From Candidatus Krumholzibacteriota bacterium (GTDB lineage: Bacteria > Krumholzibacteriota > Krumholzibacteriia > Krumholzibacteriales > WJIX01): a DNA stretch of 64,000 bases. The stretch's first letter is position 1. Each line of letters opens with the position of its first letter. A program made the translations under genes and the position numbers. Positions 2,676 through 45,593 of the stretch are shown piece by piece. The stretch lies in NCBI GenBank assembly GCA_034520215.1, contig JAXHNR010000001.1, positions 1,044,560-1,108,559 of the forward strand. The letters run 5' to 3'. Under the pieces are notes generated by a model. The model had not been told where the DNA came from, made no database searches, and saw nothing but the letters and a program-made list of their open reading frames with translations.

Positions 2676-2761
2676 TTCTGCTACCTCCCTTTATTAAATT
2701 AAAATATATAGTTATTCTCGATTTTACAAGTTATTAATAAAATTAATCACTTTATAATAAC

Positions 2762-3072
2762 GTGGAGTTTCCCCAATTTTTATAACCTATAAGGTAGTCG
2801 ATGATTTGTAACAGTATGCAGCTGATTAATATTTTCAAAATCGTGGTCGATTTCCCCGGCGAGGGAATCGTACGCTCTGCGCCTTGGGCTCGCTCTTTCT
2901 GCCCCTTCGGGCCAGAAATCCTTGCCCGCTCGCCACTCGGCGAGGGTTTTGAAAATATCAATCAGCCGCACTCATCAGCAATGAAAGCCCTATTCCACTT
3001 ACCAATCCTGATAACTGATTGTATCTCGCAATGTTATTATAATACTTGCCGAATTTTCAGAGGGAACTCCAA
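2762..3072. mobile_element. MITE-like element, copy 1 (about 311 bp)
   Basis: First of three near-identical copies in the window, all in the same orientation. The ends are GTGGAGTTTCCCC and an imperfect inverse (GAGGGAACTCCAA). The 8-bp sequence ATAATAAC is found immediately on both sides (2754-2761 and 3073-3080), as expected for a target-site duplication. Inside, a 24-bp inverted repeat containing TTTTCAAAA/TTTTGAAAA encloses a GC-rich core with three hairpins, one with a TTCG loop. No credible protein is encoded. The element fills the space between two divergent genes (2675 and 3138) and accounts for most of that 462-bp gene-free stretch. Confidence 0.85.
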
Positions 3073-3137
3073 ATAATAACTAATTGACATTATATTTCTG
3101 TTATGAGAAACTGGAAACTACTATATAAGGAGTAAAA

Positions 3138-5603
3138 ATGATCAGATTTATAAGAAGCGGTATAATCGCTGCTGCGTTACTGATCATTATACTAGGGTAT
3201 TTTGGACTAGAAGATTTCTTAGAATCCCCTTCTCTCGGAATCAAAGACCATAACCTCGAAATCATAGAAATTGAAGAAGACGGGTCTAACCTTAACTCAT
3301 CACTGAAAATAGGCGATCTTATCGTAGCTGTTAACGGTACCAGGGTTAACAATATGAATCACTATAAATACTTGATTTTCAGAAATACTAACTTAATCCC
3401 CTTTATTTTTACAGTTAAGCGAAACGGTGAACTTATAGATATCAAAGTAAGAGTTGAAAAACGATCGATCGCCAAGAAACTTCAAAGATTCGGGTTAATT
3501 ATCTCCGCGTTGAGCTTTATTACGGCGGGTTTTGTGGTTATTCGAAAACGCAGTGATATTATGGGGATTCTTTTCTCGATGAATTGCCTTGTGATGGCCT
3601 TTCTTTTTACGGACAGACCGGTTGTATCGTCAGATATTCTTCATATCGGCGGAGAGTTGATATATGACCTTCTGTTTATTTTTATGCCGGCCTTTTTCCT
3701 CCATTTCTTTCTCATGTTCCCGGGACGTGTTATTAAAACGGGAAGCACACGTTACAAAGCGGAGAAATACCTCTACTACCCGCCTACTATAATATACGCT
3801 ATAAGTTTTATTCTCTCTCTAGCTAACTATAATTCCACAGTCAGCAGGTCTATTATTCATTTTCACGAAACTATTACATCTTTATACTGGATGTTCTACG
3901 CGATATTAATCCCCGTAATTTTTATTCGGTCCTACAGGGCTTCCCCCAAAGCACTCAAAACAAAATTCCGGATAGTGATTTTCGGCGTTGCTACAGGAAT
4001 ACTTCCAATGGCGGTGATGCTTTTTGTTATGCATGTCAAACCAATTTCTGTCTCTTACAATTATCTGTATCTCTCCTGGATTTCACTGTCGTTTATTTCA
4101 ATAGCTTTTAGTTGGGCGATTCTAAAACAAGACGCGTTTAATCTGAGATTGGTTTTAAAGAGAGTGATCGTATATCTCGTTATTCCGCTGCTATTTACAG
4201 CAGTTTATTATGTTATCAATCAAATATCGGAAAGTAAAACCGCTCAGCTTCTTGATTTGAATCAGTACTATTTTTCGGCAATAGCGATAATCTTTTTCGC
4301 GGTTATCTTCGTTCCCGCGAGATCTATGGTTTTCAGTATATTTGACAGATATTCCTACCACAAGCGCGGAGATTTAAAGAGATCCCTCATGGAATTTTCA
4401 CATAATATCCGTTCGTATAAAAGCGCTGAAGGGATTATAAGTTGTGTTGCAATAGAGATAGTAAGTATCTTTCAGCCTGAAAGTGTCCAGGTATTCTTAT
4501 CAAGAGATGACTTTCATTTTGAGCTTAGTTATATATATCCGGAGGATAAAGAAATAGTAGTAAAAAAACTGCCTAAGAAAATTGAATTGCTCCGTGAGAC
4601 CAAAAAAAAGAAATCCCCTTTAATGCTTGAATATTTTGACTCTATGTGGGTCAAGTATAAGTTCGATAGAATTTCGCGCGAATTTGTCAATTTAAACAAA
4701 AATTCTACTATTGTAGCTATATCAGTAGATGATGTTTTGAAAGGGTTTATTTTAGCGGGGCCTAAAATATCCGGAGGCATATATACGAGCGAGGATTCGG
4801 AACTGCTGAATTTTCTTGGAGAGAGAACTGCCGCTTCTTTGAGAAATTTGGAATTATCTCGTATCAACCTCGAGAAAGATGAACTCGATAACGAAATCAG
4901 GATAGCAAGCGTAATCCAGAAGAAACTTCTACCGGGTTCACCCCCCACTCTGCGCGGGGCGCAAATCGCGGCTAAAATCAAAACAAGCAAGCAAGTTGGA
5001 GGAGATTTCTACGATTTCTTCGACATGGGGGCGGGGATTACAGGGCTCGCTGTATCAGATGTCGCCGGGAAGGGAATACCCGCTGCTTTCCTCATGTCCA
5101 CGATTCAGGCTTCTCTAAGTGCTCAGACTCAGTTAAAACGTAAATGTGCCGATGTAGTTTACTACTTGAATAACAACCTATTTGAAAAGAGCGACACTAT
5201 TCGCCATGCAACTTTATTCTATGCTCTATACGATGAACGAACAGGTATACTCAATTATACAAACGCTGGAGCCGTACCTCCGGTAATTATCAAACGAAAC
5301 GGTAAAATAGAAAGATTGAAAAGAGGGGGCCTTGTTCTCGGGATTGAAAAAAATACTACCTATCTTGAAGGGGCGGTCAAATTAAAGAGTGGCGATCTGC
5401 TCGCGGCGTTTACGGATGGAGTAATTGATCAGGAGGATGATGAAGGGAATTATTTCGGATTCGAAAGATTTCTTGGATTCATGGTTGAGAATTACCGGCT
5501 TAGTTTAGATAGATTGATTGATAAATTATTCGACTGCTTAGAGGATTTTGGCAATAAAAAAATAAAGGACGATACTACGGTTATAATTTTAAAAAAGAAT
5601 TAA
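3138..5603 (+). CDS. Membrane SpoIIE-type PP2C phosphatase with PDZ-like and GAF-like domains
   Basis: An 821-residue predicted signalling Ser/Thr phosphatase. Residues 6-24 are a membrane helix. Residues about 31-106 form a PDZ-like domain (GDLIVAVNGTRV at 59-70), predicted outside the cytoplasm. A block of several hydrophobic helices covers about 115-390, followed by a GAF-like region and a long helix. The C-terminal PP2C/SpoIIE domain keeps the metal-binding acidic residues: GGDFYDF near 620, SDVAGKGIPAA near 641, FTDGVID near 758 and DDTTVIIL at the end. Such enzymes usually dephosphorylate anti-anti-sigma proteins; no partner gene is adjacent, so the target is unknown. AAGGAG lies 5 nt before the ATG. 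Mobile element copy 1 ends 66 bp upstream of the start. Confidence 0.9.
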   Translation: MIRFIRSGIIAAALLIIILGYFGLEDFLESPSLGIKDHNLEIIEIEEDGSNLNSSLKIGDLIVAVNGTRVNNMNHYKYLIFRNTNLIPFIFTVKRNGELIDIKVRVEKRSIAKKLQRFGLIISALSFITAGFVVIRKRSDIMGILFSMNCLVMAFLFTDRPVVSSDILHIGGELIYDLLFIFMPAFFLHFFLMFPGRVIKTGSTRYKAEKYLYYPPTIIYAISFILSLANYNSTVSRSIIHFHETITSLYWMFYAILIPVIFIRSYRASPKALKTKFRIVIFGVATGILPMAVMLFVMHVKPISVSYNYLYLSWISLSFISIAFSWAILKQDAFNLRLVLKRVIVYLVIPLLFTAVYYVINQISESKTAQLLDLNQYYFSAIAIIFFAVIFVPARSMVFSIFDRYSYHKRGDLKRSLMEFSHNIRSYKSAEGIISCVAIEIVSIFQPESVQVFLSRDDFHFELSYIYPEDKEIVVKKLPKKIELLRETKKKKSPLMLEYFDSMWVKYKFDRISREFVNLNKNSTIVAISVDDVLKGFILAGPKISGGIYTSEDSELLNFLGERTAASLRNLELSRINLEKDELDNEIRIASVIQKKLLPGSPPTLRGAQIAAKIKTSKQVGGDFYDFFDMGAGITGLAVSDVAGKGIPAAFLMSTIQASLSAQTQLKRKCADVVYYLNNNLFEKSDTIRHATLFYALYDERTGILNYTNAGAVPPVIIKRNGKIERLKRGGLVLGIEKNTTYLEGAVKLKSGDLLAAFTDGVIDQEDDEGNYFGFERFLGFMVENYRLSLDRLIDKLFDCLEDFGNKKIKDDTTVIILKKN

Positions 5604-26562: not shown

Positions 26563-26645
26563 ACCCTCTCCTTTAGGATTTAAGAAATACAGAACATTTT
26601 CAATATCGTACTATATTGAAAATAACATTGCAATCAATAAAGTTT

Positions 26646-26955
26646 GTGGAGTTTCCCCAATTTTTATAACCTATAAGGTAGTCGATGATTTGTAACAGTA
26701 TGCGGCTGATTGATATTTTCAAAATCGTGGTCAATTCCCCCGGCGAGGGAATTGTACGCTCTGCACCTCGGGCTCGCTCTTTCTGCCCCTTCGGGCCAGA
26801 AATCCTTGCCCGCTCGCCACTCGGCGAGGGTTTTGAAAATACCAATCAGCCGCACTCATCAGCAATGAAAGCCCTATTCCATTTGCCAATCCTGATAACT
26901 GATTGTATCTCGCAATGTTATTACAATACTTGCCGAAGTTTCGGGGGAACTCCAA
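26646..26955. mobile_element. MITE-like element, copy 2 (about 310 bp)
   Basis: Same element and orientation as the copy at 2762. The left end is GTGGAGTTTCCCC and the right end GGGGGAACTCCAA, with one mismatch in the inverted repeat. ATAAAGTTT (9 bp) flanks it directly on both sides (26637-26645 and 26956-26964), a clear target-site duplication. The 57 bases at the left end match the other copies exactly. It sits in the gap between the GAF-protein gene and the POT gene (26563-26980). The rest of that gap shows nothing else but the POT ribosome site. Confidence 0.88.
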
Positions 26956-26980
26956 ATAAAGTTTTATTGGTATTTAGAAA

Positions 26981-45083: not shown

Positions 45084-45169
45084 AAGATATCTTTCCGCCT
45101 GTCTCGCAAAAGGGAATTCCCCGATGGATGGTAAGCTAACGGGGTGTCTATGTCAACTTTTTAGTTTAT

Positions 45170-45475
45170 TTGGAGTTTCCCCAATTTTTATAACCTATAA
45201 GGTAGTCGATGATTTGTAACAGTATGCGGCTGATTGATATTTTCAAAATCGTTGTCGGTTTCCCCGGCGAGAAAACCGCAACTCCCACCTCGGGCTCGCT
45301 CTTTCTGCCCCTTCGGGCCAGAAATCCTTGCCCGCTCGCCCTCCGGAGGGTTTTGAAAATATCATTCAGCCGCACTCATCAGCAATGAAAGCCCTATTCC
45401 ACTTACCAATCCTGATAACTGATTGTATCTCGCAATGTTATTACAATACTTGCCGGATTTTCGGGGAAACTCCAC
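45170..45475. mobile_element. MITE-like element, copy 3 (about 306 bp)
   Basis: Same element and orientation as those at 2762 and 26646. Its terminal repeats pair perfectly over 12 bp (TGGAGTTTCCCC and GGGGAAACTCCA). TTTAGTTTAT flanks it (45160-45169 and 45476-45485), a duplication of up to 10 bp. The core differs most from the other copies, but both core hairpins are preserved by compensating changes. The surrounding gap 45084-45593 holds nothing else I can identify. Confidence 0.88.
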
Positions 45476-45593
45476 TTTAGTTTATAGTCTGTTTTACTGA
45501 GTTTAGAATTTTTTTATATATGCGATAACAGGTATTACCAAAGGAAAACAGGACTGCACGGTAAGAGAAAATATTGCTTTTATTTGAAGATCT

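Follow-up and report, generated by a model that had tools for sequence, protein, structure and literature searches.

Putative miniature transposons lie at a near-constant distance upstream of predicted -35 boxes in a Candidatus Krumholzibacteriota genome

Three copies of a repeat are present in a 64,000-nucleotide stretch of a Candidatus Krumholzibacteriota bacterium genome (GenBank assembly GCA_034520215.1, contig JAXHNR010000001.1, positions 1,044,560 to 1,108,559; hereafter the window), and each has its left end less than 90 bp from a start codon. What places a repeat so regularly beside genes? The initial annotation offered two answers, that insertion is targeted relative to promoters or that the genes receive a promoter, operator or processing site from the elements. 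The coordinates on which it built are confirmed: from left end to start codon we measure 87 bp (start at 2675), 84 bp (26562) and 87 bp (45083), and all three copies share an identical 57-bp stretch running from TGGAG to AGTATGC. The repeat that it placed at 26637-26964 is also there, the element proper being shorter and the rest consisting of 10-bp direct repeats on either side (Table 1). We report that the spacing to start codons is not a rule in this genome and that the near-constant measure is the distance to the -35 box of a predicted promoter outside the element.

Promoters were scored using E. coli-type hexamers with hand-set weights, and all promoters referred to here are predicted. 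Genes were called mechanically, and so were start codons, with some errors (the scpA start itself was mis-assigned by the script). The sequence examined in the genome comprised the stretches around matches to the elements and to their terminal inverted repeats (TIRs). An Rfam scan of the window returned tRNAs only. The label of the POT-type transporter gene is that of the initial annotation.

Table 1. Window coordinates of the three repeat copies, their target-site duplications and the neighbouring predicted promoters and genes
Feature	Position	Strand	Remarks
MITE copy 1	2762..3071	+	right end toward conserved promoter
Copy 1 target duplication, ATAATAAC	2754..2761; second copy 3073-3080	.	
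-35 box TTGACA (predicted) for the gene at 3138	3084..3089	+	12 bp outside copy 1 right end
Gene downstream of copy 1 right end, 821 aa	3138..5603	+	
POT-type transporter gene, 554 aa	24898..26562	-	start 84 bp from copy 2
-10 box TACGAT, POT transporter promoter (predicted)	26605..26610	-	17-bp spacer
-35 box TTGCAA, POT transporter promoter (predicted)	26628..26633	-	13 bp outside copy 2, 2 bp past duplication
Copy 2 target-site duplication, left, AATAAAGTTT	26636..26645	.	10-bp exact match
MITE copy 2, family A, 309 bp	26646..26954	+	left TIR GTGGAGTTTCCCC, right TIR GGGGGAACTCCA
Copy 2 target-site duplication, right, AATAAAGTTT	26955..26964	.	10-bp exact match
-10 box TACCAT, scpA promoter (predicted)	45128..45133	-	
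-35 box TTGACA, scpA promoter (predicted)	45151..45156	-	14 bp outside copy 3, 3 bp past duplication
Copy 3 target duplication, TTTAGTTTAT	45160..45169; second copy 45476-45485	.	
MITE copy 3	45170..45475	+	perfect TIRs TGGAGTTTCCCC...GGGGAAACTCCA = 45171-45474

The three repeats are full-length members of a transposon family of approximately 305-310 bp (family A), the ends of which are inverted repeats, (G/T)TGGAGTTTCCCC and GGGG(G/A)AACTCCA, enclosing an interior that folds into a strong though imperfect hairpin (-63 kcal/mol as DNA; z -7.1 relative to shuffles). In the genome as a whole (2.6 Mb, two contigs) 59-60 left and 30 right ends were located, corresponding to approximately 60 copies. 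Exact target duplications flank 28 of 36 full-length copies, with a modal length of 10 bp, and they differ from copy to copy in the range 8-14 bp. The elements are multi-copy, shorter than 600 bp and free of a transposase gene, for which they are too small; they carry TIRs (perfect in copy 3) and variable target-site duplications, and relatives have empty sites at the orthologous positions (G001-G003). Judging from these sequence features, the window repeats are non-autonomous transposons of the MITE type. A sister family (family B; approximately 285 bp, 23 copies) has the same TIR, as have further families in the genome, and an exact pattern scan for the family A left end in named genomes gave no match. 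At three copies (C1:662289, 775822 and 594003) the neighbouring ORF stops 66-68 bp from the element end. Two others, C1:408567 and C2:3899, face near-identical promoter regions (TTGACAGAAAA...), a likeness that suggests a duplicated locus or related operons.

Across the approximately 60 genomic copies the left end is 40-441 bp from the next start (median 108), and most distances fall between 70 and 120 bp. This range rules out a fixed start-codon distance, and the agreement at 84-87 bp in the window is a coincidence within it. The same end had been reported to face the gene each time; there is a bias toward the left end, and yet where just one end of a full-length copy faces a promoter, it is the left end in 19 cases and the right in 9 (p 0.09 for departure from an even split), ruling out a strictly fixed orientation.

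What is nearly constant is how far the element lies from the core promoter. Reading outward from the element end, a sigma70-type promoter is predicted, with a TTGACA-like -35 box that begins 12-15 bp outside the element end and a TATAAT-like box 16-18 bp after it. Of the 60 family A left flanks, 62% have a good promoter (score at least 6 in a 9-18 nt window). The corresponding figure is 3% when flanks are shuffled and 2% when they are reverse-complemented; among 6258 positions upstream of genes lacking the element it is 7.3% (binomial p 3.5e-27). Thirty-seven left ends have such a promoter, and in 33 of them the -35 box is at 12-15 bp. In several other family A copies the promoter has the same offset outside the right end, while in approximately 7 of the 36 full-length copies neither flank has a scored promoter. 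Moreover, 22 copies have both an exact duplication and a single promoter-facing end, and in 20 of them the edge of the duplication nearest the promoter is 2-4 bp from the -35 box; the offset from element to -35 box tracks the duplication length of 8-14 bp (r=0.67). Since the gap between duplication and -35 box is constant and the duplication length varies, one cut appears to be anchored to the -35 box and the other to float. Family B provides an independent repeat, with a promoter at the expected place in 16 of 23 ends (two of the remainder have one at the right end) and a gap of 2-3 bp between duplication and -35 box in 8/8. In a genome of another genus of the same family (G004) there are more than ten copies, approximately 65-86% identical, and the -35 box is at the expected offset in three of the four for which the left flank was read.

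The initial annotation had named random distance and orientation among genome-wide copies as grounds for refutation. The start distance does vary and both orientations occur, yet the distance to the -35 box does not vary, so that the idea of targeting relative to promoters survives and is strongly supported.

The promoters are not the elements' own. The -35/-10 pairs lie outside element and duplication, and the TATAGG and TATAAA boxes noted earlier in the invariant end are not at promoter position. In genomes of the same genus the orthologous positions lack the element and retain the promoter. At the scpA site of G001 the sequence 'taaactaaaaagttgaca' / attaaactaaaaagTTGACA has nearly the same bases as the flank of copy 3; the POT site is element-free in G003 and G002 with TTGCAA/TTGCAT-N17-TAGAAT conserved; and the promoter is likewise kept at element-free sites of the carboxylase, pgm, dnaN, transaldolase and CoA-binding genes. 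An exception is purN, where the conserved -35 box is apparently approximately 26 bp away. At the copy 1 site G001 conserves AATTGACA, which corresponds to the DNA outside the right end, where the promoter scores 8.8 with the E. coli-style hexamer weights. Of the three genes to which the initial annotation assigned the elements (TPR protein, POT transporter and scpA), the TPR gene at 2675 is not the one served at copy 1, where the conserved promoter belongs to the gene at 3138. Conservation at element-free sites indicates that the promoters predate the insertions, and the element as promoter source is ruled out.

Which transposase moved these elements? A search of the genome itself with Pfam PF01609 (DDE_Tnp_1) gave one sub-threshold relic, situated in a decayed IS at C2:36392-38934 with the TIR TTGGACATTCCCC. 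The transposase of this IS is full of stops, and the IS is broken by an IS3-type element with an open transposase ORF (288 aa). Intact transposase copies were found in G003 (421 aa) and G010, a copy in G016 is cut by the contig end, and relatives 79-100% identical to the query occur in three MAG contigs, one of them from Candidatus Krumholzibacteriota. On plasmids, tblastn with the decayed transposase gave no match and with the intact one only 25-27% matches in Thermus/Deinococcus; a search of solved structures gave no match, and an AlphaFold model built from three sequences (pLDDT 39) was set aside. The DDE_Tnp_1 domain is recognized at 35.7 and 39.5 bits (Pfam cut-off 23). Every NCBIfam model for IS4, IS701 and IS1634 matches far below its cut-off (best 39-50 bits against 100-160 for the main models), so that by its profile matches the transposase belongs to an unclassified lineage of the IS4 clan. 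Its motif YLSRWLIEETIRFIK conforms to the signature Y(2)R(3)E(6)K.

The autonomous elements are placed in a similar way. In both intact copies with a readable flank the transposase 3' end faces a TTGACA promoter, namely CAAGAATCTCAA followed by TTGACA-N17-TATCCT in G003 and AATTATTTCCTTAC followed by TTGACA-N17-TAAGCT in G010, and the decayed IS faces ATAATTAATGTC followed by TTGAAG-N16-GATAAT. The placement is thus found in two genera for MITEs and two for IS ends, three genera in all. Another end type, TTGGAGTTTCCCCATTTTTCTAAGGGGAA, is present at C1:1553110, C1:1561708 and C2:45478 and is similar to IS ends; in G002 and G013, related ends likewise precede TTGACA promoters. At C2:23070 (promoter score 12.6) and C2:921673 (5.0), transposase remnants are situated immediately within MITE-type TIRs (TTGGAG/TCGGAG-type). 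The IS4-clan IS is the likely driver of the MITEs, and we infer that this transposase family moved them. As the exact partner it is a candidate: the IS TIR TTGGACATT and the MITE TIR TTGGAGTTT differ at 3 of 13 positions (TTGGACATTCCCC matches 10/13); none of the IS copies examined was an intact IS with the exact MITE TIR. Target duplications were not recognizable at the decayed or intact autonomous copies inspected, whereas the MITEs have clear ones.

We consider it highly probable that transposition is targeted to a position just upstream of the core promoter. An IS4-clan (DDE_Tnp_1) transposase with a target choice keyed to the core promoter would mobilise the MITEs. Of its two staggered cuts, one would fall 2-4 bp before the -35 hexamer of an existing sigma70-type promoter and the second 8-14 bp farther upstream. 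Repair would leave the element approximately 12-15 bp upstream of the -35 box, its left end more often, not always, promoter-ward, with core promoter and coding sequence intact. Loosely intergenic insertion, followed by selection that kept only promoter- and gene-sparing copies, could account for the facts that most copies are intergenic and upstream of apparently essential or housekeeping genes (dnaN, scpA) and, because loss of the promoter-distal part is tolerated, that many left-only copies exist. Such survivorship predicts a broad spread of distances, as opposed to the actual peak of approximately 4 bp in width and a duplication edge fixed within 2-4 bp of the -35 box, and we regard it as most improbable. 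We infer that later selection is not the source of the precision, which would arise at insertion through recognition of the promoter DNA or of the complex that RNA polymerase forms with it. It also appears very unlikely that the elements are mobile regulatory modules, whose conserved 57-bp end would be an operator or upstream activating sequence and whose copies were kept at a working distance. Conservation is highest in the left 80 bp (identity 0.96-1.0 in each 10-bp block) and lower in the right approximately 70 bp, and many family A copies retain the left part alone. Right ends also face promoters, however, and orthologous promoters exist without the element. Nor does the left-only excess need a function of the left end, since the promoter is 12 bp away and would be lost to deletions on its side, and the truncation breakpoints cluster at the two bases of the internal hairpin (consensus positions 57-61 and 198-203). 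This deletion bias accounts for the excess, which was dropped as proof of function.

Within targeted transposition, it is possible, though somewhat doubtful, that the transposase reads a TTG(ACA)-like motif a few bp from the cut, with promoters incidental and RNA polymerase uninvolved. In its favour, the cut position is constant relative to the -35 box, and 44 of 60 flanks have TTG at offset 11-16, compared with 11% elsewhere. Against it, TTGAC is followed by a good -10 box at 16-18 bp in 55% of element sites, 19% of other intergenic and 2% of intragenic occurrences (55% vs 19%, MWU p 4e-4), and good -10 boxes are also present where the hexamer is poor (11 of 24 element sites with only TTG). 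The sequence comparison therefore favours a promoter, rather than a lone hexamer, as the target; since purging of harmful insertions could contribute to the -10 excess, direct recognition of -35 DNA stays a rival. The duplicated DNA spans roughly -49 to -39 in the usual numbering, the region bound by the alpha C-terminal domain. Tentatively, but plausibly, the transposase may dock on the RNA polymerase-promoter complex or on bent upstream DNA (alpha-CTD/UP-element) and integrate into the approximately 10 bp just upstream of the -35 contact. We give docking on the polymerase complex and direct DNA recognition about equal weight.

The elements resemble known systems in several respects. Like IS4-clan ISs (IS4/IS701/IS1634; PF01609) the IS has a DDE_Tnp_1 domain and short TIRs, and duplications of approximately 10 bp are seen here in the MITEs; no description of a promoter-upstream target choice for IS4-clan families was found in the open-access literature. 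Bacterial MITEs such as Correia, ERIC, BrickBuilt and QMITE are likewise small, with TIRs, duplications, many intergenic copies and an internal hairpin. Correia elements are mostly located just upstream of genes, and MITEs in general are intergenic and themselves carry promoters (reviewed in PMC10969869), whereas in the present case the promoter belongs to the host and its -35 box is at a fixed distance. In E. coli, IS5 inserts upstream of the glpFK and fucAO promoters in one orientation and alters expression, its target, in mutants obtained by selection, being a short CA/TAG/A sequence at a distant upstream site (-374 to -371 relative to the fucA start) (PMC11894529). Unlike the present elements, IS5 shows no fixed distance to the -35 box, and no precedent for -35-anchored insertion in bacteria was found in the open-access literature. 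The yeast retrotransposons Ty3 and Ty1 insert at a fixed spot just upstream of the polymerase start region, sparing coding sequence. These are retroelements that use an integrase and Pol III factors and have no homology to the present elements, for which contact with the polymerase would be an analogy at the level of a hypothesis.

MITEs and IS4-type elements are themselves already familiar. Insertion at a nearly set distance from the core promoter, repeated at close to a hundred sites of a single genome, would amount to a target-selection rule new to bacteria; it also suggests a transposase that might serve to tag promoters. Targeting of this kind would explain how a small genome tolerates its load of elements, and each insertion would flag a -35 box in a largely uncultured phylum. 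If docking on the polymerase proves true, the system would be a bacterial counterpart of Ty3/TFIIIB targeting.
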